Assembly (NCBI GenBank): GCA_943331445.1
Contig: CALQLO010000012.1
Location: forward strand, 1 to 62,198
Reading direction: 5' to 3'
Length of the DNA stretch: 62,198 bases
Source of the DNA: Akkermansia muciniphila
GTDB lineage: Bacteria; Verrucomicrobiota; Verrucomicrobiia; Opitutales; UBA953
Part shown: positions 45,963 to 57,099 of the stretch, piece by piece
How the letters are laid out: the number at the start of each line of letters is the position of its first letter
Position numbering within the stretch: position 1 is the first letter of the stretch
Program-made: the position numbers and the translations under genes
Notes under the pieces: model-generated
Told to the model about the DNA's origin: nothing
The model's input: only the letters and a program-made list of their open reading frames with translations
Databases searched by the model: none

Positions 45963-46020
45963 TGCAGAGGGTCCTTCGTAAATCTATTTAACATTACTTA
46001 ATTACTCATCATTAAACCCC

Positions 46021-46998
46021 ATGGCCATCTACAACAGCGTTCTCGACACCATTGGTCACACGCCCCTCGTGCGACTGAACAAGGTCACCGAAGGTCTTCA
46101 TGCCGAAGTCCTCGTGAAGCTTGAATTCTTCAACCCGCTCTCGAGCGTCAAAGACCGTATTGGTCGCGCGATGATCGACGCCGCCGAGCGTGATGGCCGC
46201 CTTAAGCCGGGCGGCACCATCGTTGAGCCCACTTCTGGCAACACGGGTATCGCCTTGGCCTTTGTGGCCGCCGCTCGCGGCTACCGCTGCATCCTCACGA
46301 TGCCCGAGACCATGTCCGTCGAACGCCGCGTACTCCTTCGCCTCCTTGGCGCGGAAATCGTGCTGACTCCTGGTGCGAAGGGTATGCGCGGTGCCATCGA
46401 GCGTGCCACGCAGCTTCGCGATGAAATTGGTGCCAATGCTTTCATGCCGATGCAGTTTGATAACCCGGCCAACCCCGAAGTGCATCGTCGCACCACCGCG
46501 GTCGAAATCTGGGAAGACACCGAAGGTAAGGTGGATGCCATCGTCGCTGGCGTCGGCACGGGCGGCACCATTACGGGCGTCGCTTCCGTCATCAAGGGTA
46601 AGAATCCGAAGTTCCGAGCGATTGCCGTCGAGCCAGTTTCTTCTCCTGTCATCACTCAGACGATGGCTGGTCAGCCCGTCCAACCTGCTCCTCATAAGAT
46701 CCAGGGTATCGGTGCCGGTTTCGTTCCGAAGAATTGCGACATCTCTCTGATCGACGAAGTCATCCAGGTCTCGAATGAAGACGCCTTCGCCACCGCGCAG
46801 GAAGTTTCCATTCGCGAAGGTCTTGCCGTTGGCATTTCCTCGGGTGCTAATATCTGGGCCGCCCTTCAGTTGGCCAAGCGCCCTGAGTACGCTGGCAAGC
46901 GCATCGTCACGATTGCCTGCAGCCCGAGCGAGCGCTACCTCTCGACCGCCCTGGCCGAGAAGGTCCGTGCCGAAGTCACCGCACTGACCGCTTCGTAA
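46021..46998 (+). CDS. cysK: cysteine synthase A (O-acetylserine sulfhydrylase)
   Basis: PLP enzyme that makes cysteine from O-acetylserine and sulfide. 325 aa. PLP-lysine in [14 protein letters not shown], the substrate loop [15 protein letters not shown], and phosphate-binding [15 protein letters not shown]. An AT-rich upstream stretch (about 45970-46016) probably holds the promoter; CCCC precedes the ATG. A strong terminator follows. It consumes the sulfide produced by the cys operon at 55-61 kb. Confidence 0.95.
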
Positions 46999-47020
46999 TC
47001 CGAAGCCGCAGCTCGTCCCG

Positions 47021-47051
47021 AAGGCCTGTGTCGCGAGACGCAGGCCTTTTT
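47021..47051 (+). terminator. intrinsic terminator after cysK
   Basis: AAGGCCTGTGTC (47021-47032) pairs with GACGCAGGCCTT (47037-47048) over 12 bp with one G-U, GCGA loop, then TTT. Confidence 0.85.
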
Positions 47052-47083
47052 GTTGGGGGCGTTCGCCGTATGGTGAACGCAAG

Positions 47084-47137
47084 GGTAGGGGCGGGGCTAC
47101 GCCACGCCCTAGGGCACGTCGTAGTCGTGCCCCTACC
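47084..47137. repeat. GGTAGGG repeat pair, abutting inverted units
   Basis: Starts GGTAGGGGC and ends GCCCCTACC. It comprises two palindromic units, with GGGCACG and CGTGCCC arms inside the second. It belongs to the same family as the copies at 48974-49003, 49011-49095, 53192-53221 and 54389-54490. A further separate hairpin, CCTCCGGCC...GGCCGGAGG, follows at 47136-47163. Confidence 0.65.
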
Positions 47138-47208
47138 TCCGGCCACCGTACGGCGGCCGGAGGGCCAGATCTACCTGATGCTTTCGCCTTGAAGCCTTTC
47201 CTGAATAA

Positions 47209-47224
47209 GTGAACATCCGTTCAC
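47209..47224. promoter_or_regulatory. LexA-type operator of umuDC
   Basis: Perfect 16-bp palindrome with arms GTGAAC (47209-47214) and GTTCAC (47219-47224) around a 4-nt ATCC spacer. GAAC-N4-GTTC is the core of the LexA box known from Gram-positive bacteria. It ends 3 nt before the umuD ATG, so bound LexA would cover the start of the transcript. No LexA gene is in the window. Confidence 0.7.
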
Positions 47225-47227
47225 TCT

Positions 47228-47659
47228 ATGCTGGATATGCGCACATTGCAGGGGTTCGAAGCCCGGCGGCCACTGGCCTTGCCGTTGCTGGAGAGTCGGG
47301 CTGCGGCCGGCTTTCCCTCTCCCGCGGATGATCACATGGAGCGGCGGCTCGACCTGAATGAACATTTGGTGCGCAACCCGATCTCGACGTTCTTTCTTCG
47401 CGTGGATGGCGATTCGATGTCGGGTGCGGGTATCATGACGGGTGACCTGATCGTCGTCGATAAGGCGGTCGCGCCTCGTCCAGGGACCATTGTCGTCGCC
47501 GAAGTCGGCGGTGAGTTCACGGTGAAGCACCTTGAGCGTGACAGCACTGGGGCTTGGCGTCTGCGGGCCGATAGCCCGCGTTGGCCTGGCTGGTCATTGC
47601 CTTTCACTCCTGAATGCCGTATCTGGGGAACAGTGGTCGCCGTCGTGCGCCGCTGCTGA
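47228..47659 (+). CDS. umuD: UmuD-like SOS mutagenesis protein (S24 peptidase)
   Basis: 143 aa. Self-cleaving partner of the Y-family polymerase. The cleavage site is Ala27-Gly28 (RAAAGFPSP), catalytic Ser63 ([11 protein letters not shown]) and Lys100 (GEFTVKHL), and there is no helix-turn-helix, so it is UmuD rather than LexA. ATG at 47228, 3 nt after the operator. The umuC ATG follows 4 nt after the stop. Confidence 0.9.
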
Positions 47660-47663
47660 CGCC

Positions 47664-48968
47664 ATGTTGCGAGCCCTTGCTGATTGTAATAATTTCTACG
47701 CCTCTTGCGAGCGTGCCCTCGACCCTTCGCTGATCGGGGTGCCCATCGTGGTGCTCTCGAATAATGACGGCTGCGTGGTCGCGCGCTCTTCCGAAGCCAA
47801 AGCGCTAGGTATTCCGATGGGGGCGCCCTATTTTGAAGTGCGCCGCACCTGCGAGGCGCATGGCATTCGTATCTTCTCATCAAACTTTGCCGTCTACGGA
47901 GAATTCTCCGAGCGGGTGATGGCGGCTCTGTCCGAGCAGGCCCGTGACCTCGAGGTGTATTCCGTCGACGAGGCTTTCTTGGGTTTTCCCGATATGCCAG
48001 ATGCGGATGCGCTGGCCTTAGGGCTCCGCATTCGGGCCGATGTGCTGCAACGCACCGATATCCCGATCTCGCTGGGGATGGCTCAGACCAAGGTATTGTG
48101 CAAGCTGGCTAATGAACGCGCCAAGGGCGAGAAGGCCAGTGGCGGCGTCATCGTGGTGCCGGCGGACCCCGCTGGGCGCACGGCCTTCCTGCGCGGGGTC
48201 GAAGCAGAAGATGTCTGGGGCGTCGGGCCAGGCCTGGCCTCCCGCCTTCGCTCACACGGTATTCTTTCCGCAGTGGACCTCGCCGAAGCCGAGCCATCCT
48301 TCATCCGACGTATCGCGGGTGTGGTCGGCGAACGCCTCGCCCTCGAACTACGTGGCATCTCTTGTCATGACATCGTCGAGGATGCTGGTCCGAGGAAAAG
48401 CGTGTTAGTTTCCCGCTCCTTTGGTCGACCGATCACCGACCCGCACGAACTGGCCGAGGCTATCGCGGCACATGCGGCCCGTGCCGCGGAAAAACTACGC
48501 GAAGACGGACTGATCGCCTCGTCTATCGTGGTCTTCATCCGGACTAACCAGCATCGTATCGACCAAGAGCAGTATCGTGGCGATGAACTCGAGCCGCTTG
48601 ATCCACCGACTGACGATGCACGCGCCATCTGCGCAGCGGCCTCGCGTGCGCTGGCTCGCATCCGTCGCGATGGCTATATGTATAAGCGGGCAGGGGTGAT
48701 GCTCCAAGGTTTGACGCCGGCCGACACGGTGCAGCCCTCGTTGCCAGGTATGGGCGGAGAGATTGATCCGACAAAAGATCGTTTGATGAAAGCCGTCGAT
48801 GCCTTGAATCATAAACTCGGTCGCGATGCGGTGCGTCTCGCCAGTACGGGCTTTGAGCGGGCGTGGAAGGGTAAGTCCGAGCTTCAGTCCGGAGCCTCGC
48901 TGACCGACCCCGAGCGTTTACCGAAGGCGAAAGATGGCCCCAAGCCGAGGATTAGGTTTCACGAGTGA
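47664..48968 (+). CDS. umuC: Y-family DNA polymerase V subunit UmuC
   Basis: Error-prone translesion polymerase. 434 aa from the ATG at 47664; the frame to 47532 lies inside umu[19 protein letters not shown] (metal Asp), [18 protein letters not shown], and the catalytic [10 protein letters not shown] are typical; the C-terminal QPSLPGM near residue 355 resembles a beta-clamp-binding motif, and [24 protein letters not shown] is typical of UmuC ends. Two-gene SOS operon with umuD. Confidence 0.93.
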
Positions 48969-48973
48969 GATGA

Positions 48974-49003
48974 GGTAGGGGCAGCACCGCGTGCTGCCCT
49001 AGG
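48974..49003. repeat. GGTAGGG-palindrome repeat, single unit
   Basis: Unit GGTAGGGGCAGCACCGCGTG... whose stem arms are GGGCAGCAC (48979-48987) and GTGCTGCCC (48991-48999), with CGC in the loop. It lies directly after umuC. No T run follows, so it is not a plain terminator. Confidence 0.7.
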
Positions 49004-49010
49004 GCTGCTG

Positions 49011-49095
49011 GGTAGGGCGGGCTCTCCGAGCCCGCCGCTGAAGCGGTATTCAGTGAGAATAATGTAACGGACGGCTCGGAGAGCCGTCCCTACCC
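49011..49095. repeat. GGTAGGG repeat pair with terminal inverted repeats
   Basis: Left unit 49010-49036 (GGGTAGGGCGGGCTCTCC then GAGCCCGCC) and right unit 49069-49095 (GGACGGCTCGGAGAGCC then GTCCCTACCC). The right unit is the inverse of the left with few changes. A 32-bp spacer holds a CCGCT-GA-AGCGG hairpin near 49034-49046. About 86 bp in all, MITE-like. Confidence 0.7.
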
Positions 49096-49167
49096 AGAAC
49101 TCCCTAGCCCTGATTGTATCCCTCCTTGTCCCGGGAACTTTCCCACGACATATCTGCTCTTACCCCT

Positions 49168-50679
49168 ATGAGTTCGCCCCGACTCGGTTTCCGCCATGTC
49201 CTGTTGGCCCTGGCTTCCTCCGTCACCCTTTGGGCGGCGCCTGTCGTGCAACCGGGAACCTTGGTTGGATTCGCCGAGCGCGACATCACACCAGAGGTCG
49301 GCATGGAAGTTCCGGGTAACTACGGCAAGGTCTACGCCAAGAAGATCCATGACGCCTGTAAAGTGCGGGTAAGTGTGTTGGACGATGGCAAGATGCGCGT
49401 GGCGCTCGTGGGGATTGATGCGCTTTTGATTCGTCGCGAAACCGTGCTGGAGATTCGCCAAAAAGTTAAAGCCGCCTGCGGCATCAGTGACGTGATGATC
49501 GGAGCATCGCATTCCCATTCCTCCGGCCCGATCGGGATGATCCTGCCCGGCGAGTTCGATCATGCTTCGGCGGAAATTCAAGACCTCGCCTACAAGAAAT
49601 CTTCCTGCGCCGATGCTGGCTATTTGCAGAAAGTCATCGCCGCCACCGTTGAGGCCATCGTGGCCGCCGATCAGGCTAAGGCTGCGGTTACCCTTGGTTT
49701 TGGTGTGGGACACGAAGATAAGGTAGCTTTTAATCGTCGCGTGCGGATGAAAAACGGCCTGACCTTTTCCCACCCAGGTAAGAATAATCCCGATAACCTT
49801 GAGTTCGCCAATCCGACGGATGATGAGGTAGGTGTGATCGGCGTATGGCAGCCTGACGGTAAGTTGGCAGGCTGCATCGTAAACTTTTCCTGTCATGCCA
49901 CGACGAATTCCGATGGGATTGGGGCGAACTGGATTCACTATACCGAGAAGGTGATCCAGGGTTATTACGGCAAGGATGCTAGGGTTGTGTTCCTCCAGGG
50001 TGCCTGCGGCGATGTGACGCAGGTCAACAACCTCGACCCCAAGGCTAATCCCGCCTCGGATGAATGGTCGCAATTTGTCGGTGGTCGCGTCGGGGCCGAA
50101 GCACTCAAGGTCTTGCTCAGCATGTCACAGACCCGGACCGCAGTGGTGCCTGTCGCCGCTAGCCAGAAGGTGTGGGATGTGGCCCGCAGATTGCCCGCTC
50201 CGGAACGCGTCCTGGCGGCCCGTGAACTCATTAAGGGTCCAGCCAGCCACCCCGATTGGGTCTGGGCCAAAGAGACCCTGCTTCTGGATGCGCTCATCGC
50301 TAAACGAAGTGATGTGCAGGTTGAAGTGCAGGCCATTCAAGTCGGCCCAGTGGTCTGCCTTTCGAATCCAGCAGAGTATTTCGTTTCTTACGGCCTCCAG
50401 CTCAAGAAGCGCAGCGGCTTTCCGATAACTTTTCCCGTGGAACTCGCCAATGGTTGCGTTGGCTATGTGCCAGACGAAGAGGCTTTCGGAGCGCACGGTG
50501 GTGGCTATGAGACGCGTCTGACCAGCTACAGCAACTTGGTGACGAATGCAGGGACTCAGTTTATGAACGCTGGACTCGAACTTGCCGCCCAAATGAAACC
50601 GTCACCGTTGCTGGAACGGCCAGTCGCTCCCGTGGGCAAGGCGTGGACGTACGGCAATCAACCCCCGCAGCTTAAATGA
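49168..50679 (+). CDS. neutral/alkaline ceramidase-like exported hydrolase
   Basis: The ATG at 49168 gives a signal peptide (VLLALASSVTLWAAPVV), 503 aa. Zinc-site motif IGASHSHSSGPIG with HxH, then NFSCHATTNSDG and GACGDVTQVNN, as in the N-terminal catalytic domain of neutral ceramidases. The true substrate is uncertain, since this family is expanded in PVC bacteria without proof of ceramide hydrolysis. Its stop overlaps the next ATG by 4 nt. Context TCTTACCCCTATG. Confidence 0.78.
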   Translation: MSSPRLGFRHVLLALASSVTLWAAPVVQPGTLVGFAERDITPEVGMEVPGNYGKVYAKKIHDACKVRVSVLDDGKMRVALVGIDALLIRRETVLEIRQKVKAACGISDVMIGASHSHSSGPIGMILPGEFDHASAEIQDLAYKKSSCADAGYLQKVIAATVEAIVAADQAKAAVTLGFGVGHEDKVAFNRRVRMKNGLTFSHPGKNNPDNLEFANPTDDEVGVIGVWQPDGKLAGCIVNFSCHATTNSDGIGANWIHYTEKVIQGYYGKDARVVFLQGACGDVTQVNNLDPKANPASDEWSQFVGGRVGAEALKVLLSMSQTRTAVVPVAASQKVWDVARRLPAPERVLAARELIKGPASHPDWVWAKETLLLDALIAKRSDVQVEVQAIQVGPVVCLSNPAEYFVSYGLQLKKRSGFPITFPVELANGCVGYVPDEEAFGAHGGGYETRLTSYSNLVTNAGTQFMNAGLELAAQMKPSPLLERPVAPVGKAWTYGNQPPQLK

Positions 50680-53186
50680 TTCGGTTGATATTACTTGTCA
50701 GTACGGCGGCACTGGTCGCTGCTCCGGTGCTCAGTCCGGTCAGTCCCGAAGAGGCGCTGAAGACCTTTGAAGTGGCGCCTGGCCTCAAGGTCGAACTGGT
50801 CGCGGGTGAGCCGTTGGTCGCCTCGCCTTGTGCCATGGCCTTTGACCGCAAGGGCCGGCTTTTTGTCGCCGAGAATCGCGGCTACCCCATCGGCCCCAAG
50901 GAAGGTCAGAAGCCTGCGGGTGTCATTGCGATGCTCGAAGATACCGATGGCGACGGCCAGATGGATAAGCGTACGGTCTTCGCCGATGGGCTGACTTTCC
51001 CCAATGGCGTGCTTCCTTGGAAGGGCGGGATCATCGTGACCTGTGCCCCCGACATTATTTTCCTGAAAGACAATAAAAGCACGGGCGTCGCCGATGAACG
51101 CCGTGTCCTGCTGACGGGATTCGCCACCACGGGGAGCACGCAGTTGCGCGTGAATGCTCCCACGATCGGACCCGATGGTTGGATCTACCTCGCTGCCGGC
51201 CTCAGCGGCGGGACGATTACTTGCCCGGAATATCCTGAGCGGCCTCCCTTTAAGATGACTTCAGACGTACGCTTCCATCCAGAGACGCTTGAGGTGCAAG
51301 CGGTCGATGGTCGCTCGCAATATGGCATGAGCTTCGATCGGGACGGCAACCGTTTCATCTGCATGAACCGGCTGCCCGTACAGCACGTTGTCTTCCAGTC
51401 TCAATGGTTGAAGCGTAATCCACGCCTGCCGTTCAGCGAGACCGTCGAAGATTGTAACGAACGTAACGCCTTCAACGGCATCAACGGAGGACATGACGGC
51501 GTCCGGCTCTTTCCGATTAGTTCCAATATCACCACGGCCGACGGCCATGCTGGCTCTTTTAGCGCTGCCTGCGCGGTCCATGTGTGGTTCGGGGGTGGAC
51601 TGACTCCTGAATGTCAAGATGCGGTGTTTTCCTGCGATCCGACGGGTAACCTCGTGCACGCGGATCGCTTGACCCGGAAGGGGGCGACCTTTGGCGCGAC
51701 GCCGCTATTTAAGAATCGGGAACTACTCGCTTCACGTGATGATTGGTTTCGTCCGGTCTTTCTGATGCACGGGCCAGATGGGGCTCTTTACATAGCCGAT
51801 ATGTACCGTAAGGTCATCGAGCACCCCGACTACCTGCCCGAAGAAGTGCGTAAGCATGCTGACTTCGATACCGGCAAGAACTCAGGGCGCATCTGGCGCG
51901 TTCGAGCGCTCAATCCCAGTCAGACGTCCGCGGCCGGCATGGATTTCACGGAGCGTCGACGCTTCCAGTCAGTCATTGCAATGGGCGATGAACAGTCACT
52001 GGTGGCTACGCGTAAGCTGGCCGAAGTCGTGGTGCGTGAAGCCGATGATAAATGGATGCGTAATGCGGTGTTGAGCGGCGTTCATGGACGGGAGAAAGCT
52101 TTCCTCGCGGAGCTCCTTACCGTTTTGCCTGCGGGTTCGAAGATTGGCTCGGGTTTAGCGGAAGTCTTTGGTTATATCGGTACCACGCTTGCCAAGCCGG
52201 CGGACCTCGAAGTCGCCACCAGCGCCCTCCCGGCCGTGAGGCTCGCTTTACTTTCTGGTTATCTCGCGACACCGGGACGTAAGCCCACGGGCTTACCCTT
52301 GGCGTTTCAGTCACTGTTGGATTCGTCTCCCAGCGTGGCGATAGACCGGAATCAAGACCCAGCAGAAAGGGCTGTCGCCGTTCGCCTGATGGCTCGTCTG
52401 CCTTGGGCGCGTTCGGGTGAAGCATTGCTCAAACTTGCTTTGGACGAAACCGCTCCCCAACTCGCAACCGCGGCACTCAAGGCCGTTGTCGCGTATCCCC
52501 AGGCCGAAGTTTCGGGAGTATTGCTCGCCAATTGGTCACGTTATACGCCGGCTCGTCGCGATGCCGTCCTCGGTGCCTTACTCGGTTCGCCCTACCATCT
52601 GAAGGGCGTCCTTGCCGCTGTCGAAGCGAAGCAGCTCCCAGCCAATGTTTTTACGGGGGTGCGTCGCCGGCAGGTGCTTGCCGCCAAGGACCCTGTCATC
52701 AAGGCCATGGCGGAGCGTCTACTGACCGTCTCGGCGCGTCCTGAGGCTTTGGCCGAAGCCAGTAAGGCTTTGGCGCTCACGCCGGCCCCCGCGAACGGAC
52801 GTTTGATCTTTAATTCACTCTGCTCCAGCTGTCACCGCTTAGAAGGGGCAGGGTACGCCGTCGGACCAGATCTCTACGACATCCGCCGGCAGGCCAAGGA
52901 GAACATCCTATTTCATATTGTTAATCCCGACGCCGAAATCGCCCCTGCTTTCACCGCGTACCTCGCCGAGGCTAAAGACGGCCGCATCCTCAGCGGTATC
53001 TTGGTCGGTGACACGCCCACCTCGATCACCTTACGTGGTCCCTTAGGCGTCGAAGCGATCCTGCTGCGTTCCGACCTCGCGAAACTCGAAGCTTTACCCA
53101 ATTCCTTGATGCCCACCGGACTTGAAGCCAGCCTTACCAAGCAGCAGATCGCCGACCTGTTGGCTTATCTTAAGGGGGAGAAGTAA
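50676..53186 (+). CDS. PVC-type haem-binding dehydrogenase
   Basis: 836 aa with a signal peptide (LILLVSTAALVAAPV). N-terminal propeller of the putative membrane-bound dehydrogenase family (PGLKVELVAGEPLVASPCAMAFDRKGRLFVAENRGYP; HGPDGALYIADMYRKVIEHPDY), a middle HEAT-like helical region (about 430-690), and a C-terminal cytochrome c site CSSCHRLEGAGYAVGPDL (near residue 710). This multi-domain layout is a hallmark of Planctomycetes and Verrucomicrobia. It probably oxidises sugars in the periplasm. Confidence 0.88.
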   Translation: MIRLILLVSTAALVAAPVLSPVSPEEALKTFEVAPGLKVELVAGEPLVASPCAMAFDRKGRLFVAENRGYPIGPKEGQKPAGVIAMLEDTDGDGQMDKRTVFADGLTFPNGVLPWKGGIIVTCAPDIIFLKDNKSTGVADERRVLLTGFATTGSTQLRVNAPTIGPDGWIYLAAGLSGGTITCPEYPERPPFKMTSDVRFHPETLEVQAVDGRSQYGMSFDRDGNRFICMNRLPVQHVVFQSQWLKRNPRLPFSETVEDCNERNAFNGINGGHDGVRLFPISSNITTADGHAGSFSAACAVHVWFGGGLTPECQDAVFSCDPTGNLVHADRLTRKGATFGATPLFKNRELLASRDDWFRPVFLMHGPDGALYIADMYRKVIEHPDYLPEEVRKHADFDTGKNSGRIWRVRALNPSQTSAAGMDFTERRRFQSVIAMGDEQSLVATRKLAEVVVREADDKWMRNAVLSGVHGREKAFLAELLTVLPAGSKIGSGLAEVFGYIGTTLAKPADLEVATSALPAVRLALLSGYLATPGRKPTGLPLAFQSLLDSSPSVAIDRNQDPAERAVAVRLMARLPWARSGEALLKLALDETAPQLATAALKAVVAYPQAEVSGVLLANWSRYTPARRDAVLGALLGSPYHLKGVLAAVEAKQLPANVFTGVRRRQVLAAKDPVIKAMAERLLTVSARPEALAEASKALALTPAPANGRLIFNSLCSSCHRLEGAGYAVGPDLYDIRRQAKENILFHIVNPDAEIAPAFTAYLAEAKDGRILSGILVGDTPTSITLRGPLGVEAILLRSDLAKLEALPNSLMPTGLEASLTKQQIADLLAYLKGEK

Positions 53187-53191
53187 GGCAG

Positions 53192-53221
53192 CCTAGGGCA
53201 GCACGCGGTGCTACCCCTACC
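53192..53221. repeat. GGTAGGG-palindrome repeat, single unit (inverted)
   Basis: Read from the minus strand it is GGTAGGGGTAGCACCGCGTG..., nearly identical to the unit at 48974-49003. It lies 5 nt after the haem dehydrogenase stop, between it and the Gfo/Idh gene. Confidence 0.7.
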
Positions 53222-53267
53222 TTGCGCTTGCGGGGCGAGAGGGGTGGAGTAGAAAAGGCATACCCCT

Positions 53268-54365
53268 ATGAGCCCTACTCGTCGTTCCTTCCTCGGTACC
53301 ATTGGCGGCTTAGCCGCTGGTTACGCCCTCGCCCCGGCACTACGCGCAGCGGAGGCCAGCGGTAAACCCCTCGGCTTGGCACTGTGCGGGCTGGGAGGTT
53401 ACTCCAACGGTGAACTCGCTCCCGCCCTACTGGAGACTAAGAACGTCAAACTCGTCGCCGCGATCACGGGCACGCATGCCAAAGGCGTGAAGCTGGCGAA
53501 GCTCCATGGCTTCGATGAAGCTAATATCTATGCTTATGACCAGTGGGACAAGGTCGCCGCCAATCCAGCGATTGATATTGTCTACGTGGTGACGCCTCCT
53601 GGCATCCACGCTCAAAATGTCATCGCGGCCTTCGGAGCGGGTAAACATGTCATTTGCGAGAAGCCGATGGCCACTTCGGTCGACGATTGCGATGCGATGA
53701 TCGCTGCGGGCAAAAAGGCCGGCAAGCGCCTAGCGATCGGCTATCGCCTTCACTACGATCCTTACCACCAGGAGCTCGTTCGTCTGGCTAAATCCCAGGA
53801 GTTCGGTCCGTTCATGAAGATGACGAGTGCGAACGGTTTCACTTTAGGACGTAAAGTTTGGCGGATTGAAAAGAAACTCGCCGGTGGCGGAGCCCTCATG
53901 GATATGGGCATCTACTCGATTCACGGTTGTTGCATGGCGGCCGATGCCAACCCCGTGGCCGTTACCGCCAAGGAACTCCCCAAGACGCGTCCGGAATTCT
54001 TCACCGAGGTGGAAGAGTCCATGGAAATCAAACTCGAGTTCGCCAACGGGGCGGTCGCCGACATCTGGACGGGCTATAACGCCAACCGTTCTGAGTTCTA
54101 CGCCGAGGCCGCCAAGGGCTGGTATAAGGGCGTTAGCCCGGTCTTTAGCTACCGTAAGCTGAACATCTCTACCTCGACCAAGGGCCGCCTAGACTTCGGA
54201 GTCTTCCGTCAACAGCAGCGCCACATGGACGGCGTGGCCGCAGCCTTCCGCGATAATCAACCCCTCGTCGTCACGGGAGAACTCGGCCGACGCGACATGG
54301 TCATTATCGGCGGTATCTACGAATCGATCAAGACGGGCAAGAAGGTCGAGTTGAAGTACGCCTGA
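53268..54365 (+). CDS. Gfo/Idh/MocA-family oxidoreductase with Tat signal
   Basis: 365 aa. Twin-arginine signal (TRRSFLGTIGGLAAGYALAPAL), then the NAD(P) fold LGLALCGLGGYSNGELAP, EKPMATSVDDCDAM, and the catalytic-region RLHYDPYHQEL. Such exported oxidoreductases often have tightly bound cofactors and act on sugars. With the two previous genes it forms a sugar-oxidation-like cluster. Context GCATACCCCTATG. Confidence 0.85.
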   Translation: MSPTRRSFLGTIGGLAAGYALAPALRAAEASGKPLGLALCGLGGYSNGELAPALLETKNVKLVAAITGTHAKGVKLAKLHGFDEANIYAYDQWDKVAANPAIDIVYVVTPPGIHAQNVIAAFGAGKHVICEKPMATSVDDCDAMIAAGKKAGKRLAIGYRLHYDPYHQELVRLAKSQEFGPFMKMTSANGFTLGRKVWRIEKKLAGGGALMDMGIYSIHGCCMAADANPVAVTAKELPKTRPEFFTEVEESMEIKLEFANGAVADIWTGYNANRSEFYAEAAKGWYKGVSPVFSYRKLNISTSTKGRLDFGVFRQQQRHMDGVAAAFRDNQPLVVTGELGRRDMVIIGGIYESIKTGKKVELKYA

Positions 54366-54388
54366 TTCAAGGTAGGGCCGAAGGCTTG

Positions 54389-54490
54389 AGGTAGGGACAG
54401 CACCATGTGCTGTCCTAATACCCTCTATATCGTGACGCGTTCCCGCGCTTACCTAAACTAACAAGGACAGTACGTGGTGCTGTCCCTGCC
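54389..54490. repeat. GGTAGGG repeat pair between Gfo/Idh and azoR
   Basis: Left unit 54389-54416 (GGTAGGGACAGCACCATGTG then CTGTCCTA) and inverted right unit 54463-54490 (AAGGACAGTACGTGGTGC then TGTCCCTGCCTT), 46 bp apart. The right unit runs up to the azoR stop codon at 54491. Confidence 0.65.
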
Positions 54491-55096
54491 TTACCAACTC
54501 TTGGCCAACTCGATGAGCTTCGCCGAGGCTACGGTCATGGCCTCGGCTCTTTCTTTGTCGCCGCTGTTCACGCCCTCAGCGTGTACGAAGGTGATATCGG
54601 TGATGCCGATAAAGCCGAGGATCTTGCGAAGATAAGGCTCTTGGAAGTCGTAATCCGTACCGGCGACAAAGCCGCCGCGGGAAGTGACGATGAGCGCTTT
54701 CTTGCCCTTCGCGAGCGGGACGACCCCGTCCTCGGTCAGTTTAAACGTCATATCTGTCCGGACGATTTGATCGATCCAAGCCTTGAGCGAGGCCGAGACG
54801 GTGAAGTTATGCATCGGCGAGGCGATGACGAGGGAGTCGCAGGCCAGGAGCTCAGCGGTCAGCTCATCTGAATGATGGAGGACGCCTTTCATGGCTGGAT
54901 CGTCATGGTCAGCGGCGGCATAAGCAGCGCCCACCCAGGCGTCGGAAATAAACGCGGGAGGGTGGTGACCGACGTCTCGGTGAATGACATGCAGGCCAGG
55001 ATGTTTCTCTCGCAGTGCCCCGATGAAAGTTGCGGAAAGTTTACGCGTGACGGATCGCACCGTGCGAGGGGAGGCGTCAATATGCAGCAACTTCAT
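54491..55096 (-). CDS. azoR: FMN-dependent NADH-azoreductase
   Basis: 201-aa flavodoxin-fold enzyme reducing quinones and azo compounds. The start KLLHIDASPRTVRSVTRKLSATF holds the FMN phosphate loop, then ASPMHNFTVSASLKAWIDQIVR and VTSRGGFVAG follow, as in AzoR. Start context CACAGCA before ATG. It stands alone behind the cys terminator. Confidence 0.88.
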   Translation of the reverse strand: MKLLHIDASPRTVRSVTRKLSATFIGALREKHPGLHVIHRDVGHHPPAFISDAWVGAAYAAADHDDPAMKGVLHHSDELTAELLACDSLVIASPMHNFTVSASLKAWIDQIVRTDMTFKLTEDGVVPLAKGKKALIVTSRGGFVAGTDYDFQEPYLRKILGFIGITDITFVHAEGVNSGDKERAEAMTVASAKLIELAKSW

Positions 55097-55172
55097 TGCT
55101 GTGACGCTATCTGGCCGTGTGGGCTAGTCAATGGACCCCGACGCCTTTGAGGGGCCTGCCGTAACAAAAACC

Positions 55173-55198
55173 AGGGCTAGGACTAGTTTCCTAGCCCT
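55173..55198 (-). terminator. intrinsic terminator of the cys operon
   Basis: AGGGCTAGGA (55173-55182) and TCCTAGCCCT (55189-55198), a 10-bp perfect stem with a 6-nt loop. On the minus strand it is followed by GGTTTTTGTT. It separates cysNC from azoR. Confidence 0.85.
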
Positions 55199-55233
55199 AG
55201 CCCTGTCTCTTGCCCTGTGTAGCTTCGGTTTAC

Positions 55234-57099
55234 TTAAACTTCCCAGTCTTCACCCTTACCCTGCAGGACCTTATCAATAGCTCCGAGGACCAGATCGACG
55301 GCTTCTTCGGTCGAGGTCTTGTCAGTTTTGATATGCACCTCGGGGGATTCAGGTGCTTCGTAAGGTGAGGAGATACCCGTGAATTCAGCAATCTCACCCC
55401 GACGGGCCTTGGCGTAGAGCCCTTTGACGTCGCGGGATTCGCAAACATCGAGCGGAGCATCCACGAAGACTTCGATGAAAGCGTGGTTGGCCAAGGCAGC
55501 ACGCGCTTTGGCGCGGTCGGCCGCCAGCGGGGCGATGAGGGTGACGAGGGTGATGTGACCCGTGCCGGCAAAGAGGCCGGCGACGGCGGAGGCCCGGCGG
55601 ACGCTTTCGGAGCGATCCGCCGCCGAGAAGCCGAGGTCGCGATTCAGCGAAACACGCAGATCGTCGCCATCCACGCGGATGACATTACGAGAGGCATCGA
55701 AAAGGCGACGTTCGACCGCTTCCGCGATGGTGGATTTGCCCGAGCCCGAAAGGCCGGTGAACCAAATCACGGCCGGTGGGTGCCCAGCTCGAGCATTGCG
55801 CTCGGTAGCGGTGACCTTGCCGGAAGGTGCGGATGATTGGGTGACGGCGTCGAGGATGATGCCGCCGCCATGGATGCGTCCGCCTTCTTCGAGGGCGAAG
55901 CGACCCGTAATTGGGCACTCGCTGTGCAGATCGAAGGCGATGTTGCGGGTGGCGCGGACGATGACTTCGCAGATGGAGTCGCGAGGGACGCTGGAGCCTG
56001 CTTTCGATTCCAGGGTCGAGGCGTCGGTGATCTTTTCAATCTTCGCGATCACGGCTTCGACGTTCTGAGTTAGCAAGCGGAGTCGATACGATTTATTTGG
56101 GACGAGGGGCTCCTTGCCCAACCAGAAGATGCGAGCGCGGAATTCGCGGCCAACACGGGGCTGGTGGTTCGGATGCGCAGCCACTTGACCACGTTCGACG
56201 AAAATCTGCTCGGAGAGGGTAACGCTGGCGGAACCGCCTGTGCCGACCACTGAACGGGATTCAGGCCCCGGCCAATCTTCAAACGTGCGAACGGTGCTGC
56301 GACGTCCACCTGGCTGGAAGATGAGCTCGTCGCCCGGACGGATAGCGCCCGCTTCGACGCGACCGGCGATAATGCGACGATGGTCGAAACGGTAGATGTC
56401 GGAGACCGGCAGGCGCAGGGGCAAGCCCGTGAGGTCATCCTCGTGGGCGAAGTTATCGAGGGCTTCCGTGACCGTCGGGCCTTTCCACCAAGGCATCTTG
56501 GCCGCGCGCTCGACGACGTTTTCGCCATGCTTGGCGGCAATCGGAATAAAGTGAACGGCGTTAAGGCCTAGGGTCTTCAGGAAGGCTGAGTATTCGACGA
56601 CAATTTTCTGGTAGGTGGATTCCGAGTGATCGACGAGGTCCATCTTGTTCACCAGAACGACGAGCTGCTTCACGCCTAGGAGGGAGAGTAAGAACGCGTG
56701 GCGACGGGACTGGTCCATGACGCCTTCTTTAGCGTCGATGAGCAAAAGGGCAGCGGAGGCGCTGGCGGCACCGGTCACCATGTTCTTGAGGAACTCCTTG
56801 TGGCCCGGGGCGTCGATGATTGCGTAAGCCCGCTTCTTGGTACGGAAGAAGATACGCGTCGTGTCGATTGTGATGTTCTGCTCCTGCTCTTCAATGAGGG
56901 CATCAAGCAGGAAGGCGTACTCAAATTCCATGCCTTCGATGGCACAGTTCTTACGGACCTGCTCAATCTTGCCGTTGGGCAGGGAGTCAGTGTCATTGAG
57001 GAGACGGCCGACGAAGGTGGATTTACCGTGGTCGACGTGACCGACGACGACAACGTGCATCTTGCGATGGTCTTCGACGGAGGGAAGGGAGGTGCTCAC
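55234..57099 (-). CDS. cysNC: bifunctional sulfate adenylyltransferase GTPase / APS kinase
   Basis: 621 aa. Residues 1-430 are Cys[10 protein letters not shown] (20-28), [22 protein letters not shown], then two beta-barrels. Residues 449-621 are CysC with Walker [10 protein letters not shown] and [22 protein letters not shown]. In APS kinases the loop usually reads ISP(F/Y)R; here it is IAPLA (522-526), losing the Ser, aromatic and Arg. Activity of that half is thus in doubt. With CysD it makes APS. Last gene of the cys operon. Confidence 0.94.

Follow-up and report, generated by a model that had tools for sequence, protein, structure and literature searches.

Four families of GTAG-type REP hairpins in a genome of the Opitutales and their probable RAYT partners

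The 62,198-nucleotide stretch analysed here (the window; all of contig CALQLO010000012.1, positions 1 to 62,198, in assembly GCA_943331445.1, filed as Akkermansia muciniphila) carries eight copies of a 26-bp hairpin unit, all between positions 47,084 and 54,490. We hold it highly probable that these are repetitive extragenic palindromes (REPs) of the GTAG type, some paired as REPINs (REP doublets forming hairpins), that they fall into four families, and that every family has as its autonomous counterpart a separate lineage of REP-associated tyrosine transposase (RAYT, or TnpA_REP, an HUH Y1 enzyme), the repeats themselves being non-autonomous. Most likely, they spread by means of such small single-strand transposases, whose genes lie in other parts of this genome or in relatives. 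A first-pass annotation of the window had pictured one family of elements, resembling miniature inverted-repeat elements and mobilized in trans by a REP-associated Y1 transposase; the common 26-bp design stands, but the single family gives way to four families with four RAYT lineages, and the proposed transposase is now represented by RAYTs bracketed by same-family REPs, from which we infer transposition itself. Throughout, L numbers denote loci and G numbers genomes, G000 being the genome under study (2.41 Mb in 83 contigs).

Each unit consists of a GGTAG head (once GGCAG), a 9-bp stem, a 3-nt loop and the matching 9-bp stem, giving 26 bp in place of the 28 bp originally estimated. The eight make up three inverted pairs and two singlets (Table 1), lying in four gaps: cysK–umuD, umuC–ceramidase-like gene, haem-protein gene–Gfo/Idh, and Gfo/Idh–next gene. 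All five loci of the first-pass annotation are present at slightly corrected coordinates, and so are its three inverted pairs, which measure 54, 84 and 101 bp (54–102 bp in the annotation); heads point outward in all of them (47,084–47,137, 49,011–49,094 and 54,390–54,490), but the outer GGTAGGG/CCCTACC ends ascribed to them do not hold for the pair at 54,390, where the right end is CCCTGCC. That the window holds no other copies was borne out by an unfiltered scan with a model of the unit, which recovered exactly these eight at 35.5–40.3 bits; the remaining 9 of the 17 matches listed scored 15.3 bits or less, five of them being the opposite strand of the eight units.

Several properties mark the units as more than chance palindromes. 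Seven strict GGTAG units stand in the window, where 100 dinucleotide shuffles gave 0.62 on average and never more than 3, and GGTAGGG alone occurs 13 times against 5.14 expected. Across ten units (the eight of the window and two from L001), stem pairing is kept in 96.7% of 90 cells, with both sides altered at seven of the nine stem pairs; none of 500 shuffles equalled this set on either pairing or two-sided change. Folded as single-stranded DNA, the three pairs give z scores of −4.0 to −8.3. The units thus show the form of a GTAG REP, in which a conserved, unpaired GT(A/G)G head precedes a palindrome (GCAG in the eighth unit of the window), and the three pairs show that of a REPIN, whose two REPs lie close together in inverted orientation and can pair.

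Table 1. Repeat units and associated features in the window
Feature	Coordinates	Strand	Length	Remarks
Outer hairpin, left of D element	47059-47080	none		by-eye likeness to hairpins left of D units elsewhere
Extra block relative to two relatives	47061-47155		~95 bp, edges uncertain by several bases	alignment with L103 (G008) and L108 (G029)
REPIN, family D	47084-47137		54 bp, 2-bp spacer	DNA fold z -4.00
REP unit, family D (left type)	47084-47109	+		identical to REP upstream of RAYT D, L096
REP unit, family D (right type)	47112-47137	-		similar, not identical, to REP downstream of RAYT D
Outer hairpin, right of D element	47138-47161	none		similar hairpins after right REP elsewhere
REP unit, family B, singlet	48974-48999	+		starts 6 bases past umuC stop codon
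REP unit, GGCGGGCTC stem	49011-49036	+		left half of 84-bp REPIN
REP unit, GGACGGCTC stem	49069-49094	-		right half of 84-bp REPIN; REPIN fold z -6.53
REP unit, family B, singlet	53196-53221	-		one stem change (G-C to T-G pair)
REPIN, family A	54390-54490		101 bp	REPIN fold z -8.30
REP unit, family A	54390-54415	+		one loop base off exact consensus; stem as in REPs of RAYT A, L066
REP unit, family A	54465-54490	-		GGCAG head, one stem mismatch

Genome-wide, the units run to far more than one or two copies. The model finds at least 180 matches in G000 at E≤10 (a lower bound, because only 150 of 2,232 candidates were scored; the unit at 47,084 is absent from the matches listed) and 129 at E≤0.01 under stricter filters, and matches at E≤0.01 occur in 35 of 37 genomes of the genus but in 1 of the 20 genomes taken from elsewhere in the order. 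Exact 26-mers of families A, B and D number 22, 34 and 5 in G000 and are found in 40, 41 and 11, respectively, of 55 genomes of the genus; two of the five D copies sit at contig ends with identical surroundings, which leaves at least four D loci, and one is the RAYT D locus described below. A 362-kb sample that takes in 15 stretches of 20 kb (L282–L296) contained 92 units, compared with 0, 0, 2, 1 and 0 in five first-order Markov controls, a density that is biased because the stretches were chosen by hand, several for REP richness. With long open reading frames (ORFs) as a proxy for genes, 63 of the 92 lie outside them (8.7% of the sampled sequence) and 29 overlap one. Their distribution is uneven, with 0 or 1 unit in eight stretches and 3 to 23 in the other seven. 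High copy number (often above 100 in the class) and a mostly extragenic location, both characteristic of GTAG REPs, are accordingly found here.

The genome also encodes enzymes of the expected type, RAYT A and RAYT D. RAYT A came to light because A units 567 bp apart (start to start) bracket a 163-aa ORF in both G011 and G000; in the latter (L066) the gene occupies G000:C40:7485-7976 between two identical inverted A REPs, one of which touches its stop codon. By sequence it matches NCBIfam REP_Tyr_transpos at 77.1 bits and PDB 4er8 (TnpA_REP), a RAYT bound to a REP hairpin, at E 1.7e-9, and the same entry is the top fold match (E 6.1e-9) for the predicted structure of the RAYT A protein from L157, modelled from 40 natural relatives with a pLDDT (predicted local distance difference test) of 87.2. 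In an alignment of 27 RAYTs the HUH/Tyr residues H70 and Y123 are invariant and H72 is nearly so (R in L080). RAYT D was found as a match at G000:C32:16819-17247, and its adjoining REP is identical to the unit at 47,084. Both genes lie between inverted REPs, as do most, not all, RAYTs of relatives. One exception is L093 (G007:C118), where no strict GGTAG unit adjoins the gene and the model finds just a weak match (23.5 bits) on each side, at 694-719 and 1257-1282, the two being inverted; the REP of this lineage may differ in head or stem.

Individual window units can be assigned to individual RAYTs. For two of the four families the RAYT with same-family REPs was found in G000, and for the other two only in relatives. 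The 54,390/54,465 pair belongs with the REPs around RAYT A. RAYT B was found in G001, G002, G016, G024, G029 and G034, and its REPs in L072, L073, L075 and L091 agree in every base with the unit at 48,974. Exact copies of the 49,069 unit adjoin RAYTs in L177 and L182 (Opitutae) and L208 (Spartobacteria); the 49,011 unit lies beside none of 80 named RAYT loci, with up to one mismatch allowed. These 80 are drawn from at least 488 confirmed relatives, which bear labels such as Opitutae or Verrucomicrobia bacterium, many of them pointing to lakes. GTAG hairpins are concentrated around the 80 loci, with a density of 3.19 per kb up to 300 bp away and 0.08 per kb at distances over 700 bp; in the nearer zone a strict GTAG hairpin accompanies 47 of the loci and flanks 38 of these on both sides.

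Enzymes and hairpins have, moreover, diverged in parallel. Protein distance between RAYTs correlates with distance between their flanking stems (rho 0.857, n=27; reached in 0 of 5,000 permutations), REP distance being the smallest between any flanking units; the 27 are what remains of 34 RAYT rows once L058, L079, L086, L088, L089 and L090, left out beforehand, and L093, which lacks a strict unit, are taken away, with L087 coming from another genus. Reducing the set to a single row per lineage (11 lineages, 10 from the genus) gives rho 0.647 (again 0 of 5,000 permutations). In all 30 RAYT pairs less than 30% apart the stems do not differ, and the RAYTs of L066 and L071 have identical REP stems at 62% protein identity.

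The intergenic regions themselves vary among relatives. Searching 55 genomes of the genus found UmuC in 43 and Gfo/Idh (E≤1e-80) in 37; 30 loci were taken for each, and those lacking either neighbour within 700 bp were dropped, leaving 19, 17, 14 and 18 of 30 for the four regions, G000 included. Unit-free relatives exist at every one of them: units are present and absent, respectively, in 13 and 6 loci at cysK–umuD, 10 and 7 at umuC–ceramidase, 7 and 7 at haem–Gfo/Idh (one absence being a broken unit) and 10 and 8 at Gfo/Idh–next gene; at site 4 in L156 a B unit broken by one base was counted as none. Other families replace the units of G000 at three of the four regions, haem–Gfo/Idh having only B-type units, with orthologues of the unit at 53,196–53,221 in L128, L130, L134, L135, L140 and L155. 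In L128 and L130 (G002 and G064) that last gap is 592 bp long as against 84 bp here, with about 508 extra bases between the haem-protein gene and the B unit, even though G002 and G000 share 99% identity in their Gfo/Idh proteins.

In the cysK–umuD gap the D element stands in G000, L098, L099, L102 and L112, and in L116 with a degenerate left unit; L110 has an A REPIN, L114 a B unit, and others have further families, while in L103, L107 and L108 the gap measures 137 bp and is free of units. Aligned with L103 and L108, the window has a single extra block of about 95 bp, which also covers the hairpins outside each REP, so that by this comparison the D element is larger than its REP pair; no obvious target-site duplication was found at the block, whose edges are uncertain. 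By eye, the left outer hairpin resembles those left of the D unit in L279 and L280 and at the RAYT D loci L096, L245, L249, L094 and L272, and the right one those after the right REP in L279 and L280 and at the RAYT D loci L096, L094, L095 and L245. Because similar hairpins stand outside the REPs of RAYT D, the D element of the window resembles a RAYT D locus minus its gene.

Copy number tracks the presence of the cognate enzyme. Median copies per Mb are 8.4 with RAYT A (n=7) and 2.2 without (n=48; p 4e-5), 10.8 with RAYT B (n=6) and 1.7 without (n=49; p 3e-4), and 1.1 with RAYT D (n=6) and 0 without (n=49; p 5e-6), or, restricted to genomes holding any such unit, p 1.2e-4 (A), 8.8e-4 (B) and 7.6e-5 (D); all these p values are optimistic, because the genomes are related and many incomplete.

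That optimism is one of several points that weigh against the partnership of REP families with RAYTs. G000 has the highest B density (14.1 per Mb) and family B units in the window, yet RAYT B was not found in it; in G007 (64% complete) A units reach 16.1 per Mb, and the genome yielded no RAYT A; G016 has RAYT B and yet 9 exact B units. RAYT A falls just short of the curated cut-off of NCBIfam REP_Tyr_transpos (NF047646; 77.1 bits, cut-off 80) and below that of Pfam Y1_Tnp (16.5 bits, cut-off 23), and 33 of the 80 named RAYT loci have no strict GTAG hairpin within 300 bp. Among 52 pairs of adjacent units at most 150 bp apart in the sample, 25 are heads-out, 21 tandem and 6 heads-in, which makes REPINs one arrangement among others. 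Finally, some unit-free sites retain a GGTAGGGACAG stub (L104, L107 and L108), so that loss is possible as well as gain.

Those stubs also fit a different history, in which the repeats are old relics that no transposase now acts on and that change place only through recombination, gene conversion and deletion between copies, the RAYT having been domesticated for another role. RAYT A is single-copy, one per genome, rather than the mobile, multicopy transposase gene of an ordinary insertion sequence, and adjoins rdgB in six of seven genomes, an enzyme gene that is therefore stable while its small partners vary; one and the same gap holds different families in different species; and a REP-bounded esterase gene is present or absent beside RAYT A. 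We nevertheless regard a purely relic origin as improbable, since a single 95-bp block accounts for how the cysK–umuD gap differs from that of L103 and L108, genomes with the cognate RAYT hold more copies per Mb, and closely related RAYTs keep identical stems across 30 pairs. The esterase-like gene lies at L066:126-1498 (G000:C40), with a degenerate A unit on one side and RAYT A's downstream REP on the other; a protein match places it also in G066. It is lacking in L067, L068, L069 and L070, where the flank leads straight into a single REP and then RAYT. Some 1.35 kb bounded by REPs has been gained or lost there.

The hairpins might instead be transcription terminators or mRNA-stabilizing structures selected at the 3′ ends of genes, with their spread incidental. 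The window units do lie in gaps after stop codons, and 38 of 54 placed intergenic units in the hand-chosen sample are within 100 bp of an ORF 3′ end. However, orthologous genes lack units or carry another family, RAYT genes are surrounded by matching stems, GGTAG is conserved as a head despite being unpaired, no T run follows the window units, and the one Rfam match in 46,000–56,000 scores 16.8 bits against a gathering score of 48. With units absent or replaced in relatives and stems matched to RAYTs, we set this aside as the main explanation and consider it very unlikely; a secondary RNA role is possible. Least likely of all is mobilization of the window repeats by the two longer Y1 transposases of L001 and L002, which we had first taken as the mobilizer since they are the two genes in the genome above the Pfam Y1_Tnp cut-off and a heads-out GGTAG pair lies at L001:593-660, and which we set aside because their immediate flanks are inverted GGGGTCAG(A/G)CCG repeats, the terminal-inverted-repeat type of the tyrosine transposases called TIRYTs in PMC3733652. 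The two genes lie between these repeats at L001:860-1940 (G000:C5) and L002:1-770 (G000:C8), and similar repeats occur in the umuC–ceramidase gap of L099, L103, L104 and L105 and, degenerate, in L114.

The REP–RAYT partnership suggests the following mechanism, in which cleavage chemistry and action in trans are taken from the analogy with known systems. Once the DNA is single-stranded, the hairpin would fold; the cognate RAYT would recognize the GGTAG head together with the stem, and its tyrosine would cut near the foot of the hairpin and then rejoin the DNA. An inverted REP pair could in this way be relocated or duplicated in trans, landing mostly in intergenic DNA close to the ends of genes, and RAYT A and RAYT D would presumably act so on their own hairpins; after loss of a RAYT, its REPs would stay and decay. 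RAYTs that have been studied cleave their cognate REP in vitro when it is single-stranded; the GTAG motif is in contact with the enzyme and may help to direct the choice of site, more so in some groups than in others (PMC8266576). The base after the stem is family-dependent in the window and L282–L296, with T in 22 of 22 units with an A or B stem and GT after the GGCGGGTTG stem in 12 of 12 and the GGGCGCGAC stem in 8 of 8, and such bases may bear on the choice of cleavage site. Inside the A REPIN, window positions 54,426–54,453 resemble a decayed unit of another family, GGTAGGGTCGGGACCGCGTCACGACC, present in L114 and L143.

A gene between inverted REPs, RAYT–REP co-divergence, REPINs and REPs outliving their RAYT are all known from other bacteria (PMC2817692, PMC3686654, PMC3116915, PMC3733652, PMC6006769 and PMC8266576). 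RAYTs with GT(A/G)G REPs, for example in Stenotrophomonas and E. coli (PMC2817692, PMC3686654, PMC8266576), are alike in the HUH/Tyr protein, its position between inverted REPs, the unpaired GTAG head before a palindrome, co-divergence and REP persistence; unlike them, the present system belongs to another phylum, numbers at least ten RAYT lineages within a single genus, several of them with left and right REPs that are not alike, and has outer hairpins in D. REPINs of Pseudomonas fluorescens SBW25 (PMC3116915) share inverted doublets with a spacer, several families per genome and a RAYT near each, whereas here some doublets join unlike stems and the D spacer is 2 bp. GTAG repeats were reported in 2013 in Opitutus terrae, of the same phylum (PMC3733652), where several families coexist (17, 19 and 20 are named) and the partners of a dimer lie 1–2 bp apart; GTAG-20, unlike our repeats, is mostly GTGG, and the likeness is one of description. 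The TIRYTs of that paper, whose terminal inverted repeats carry GGGGWSAS, resemble L001 and L002, with a longer protein and unrelated repeats compared with the partner of the window REPs. Within the open-licence PMC literature, PMC3733652 was the only paper to join Verrucomicrobia, repetitive extragenic palindromes and transposase.

The RAYT/REPIN system is therefore new to the genus and of a kind already known; its unusual diversity within the genus and the compound D element may be new. The REP and RAYT papers cited here mostly concern Proteobacteria, and the present case comes from a small-genome, species-rich genus of Verrucomicrobiota, in which at least ten RAYT lineages, together with sites of presence and absence, make specificity, the mobile unit and turnover comparable across lineages. 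Stems that stay constant down to 62% RAYT identity, with paired substitutions between lineages, offer a panel for how the enzyme reads its hairpin, and a D element resembling a gene-less RAYT D locus suggests an origin for non-autonomous copies. More tentatively, we propose as a possible whole that the ten or more RAYT lineages of this genus hold private hairpin keys, some with unequal left and right REPs; that compound four-hairpin D ends are shared by a gene-less derivative; that the same spots are re-occupied by different families; and that RAYT duplication with paired stem change has given rise to new, insulated families. If this is true, duplication of a RAYT coupled to such a change would generate mutually insulated element families within a single genus.

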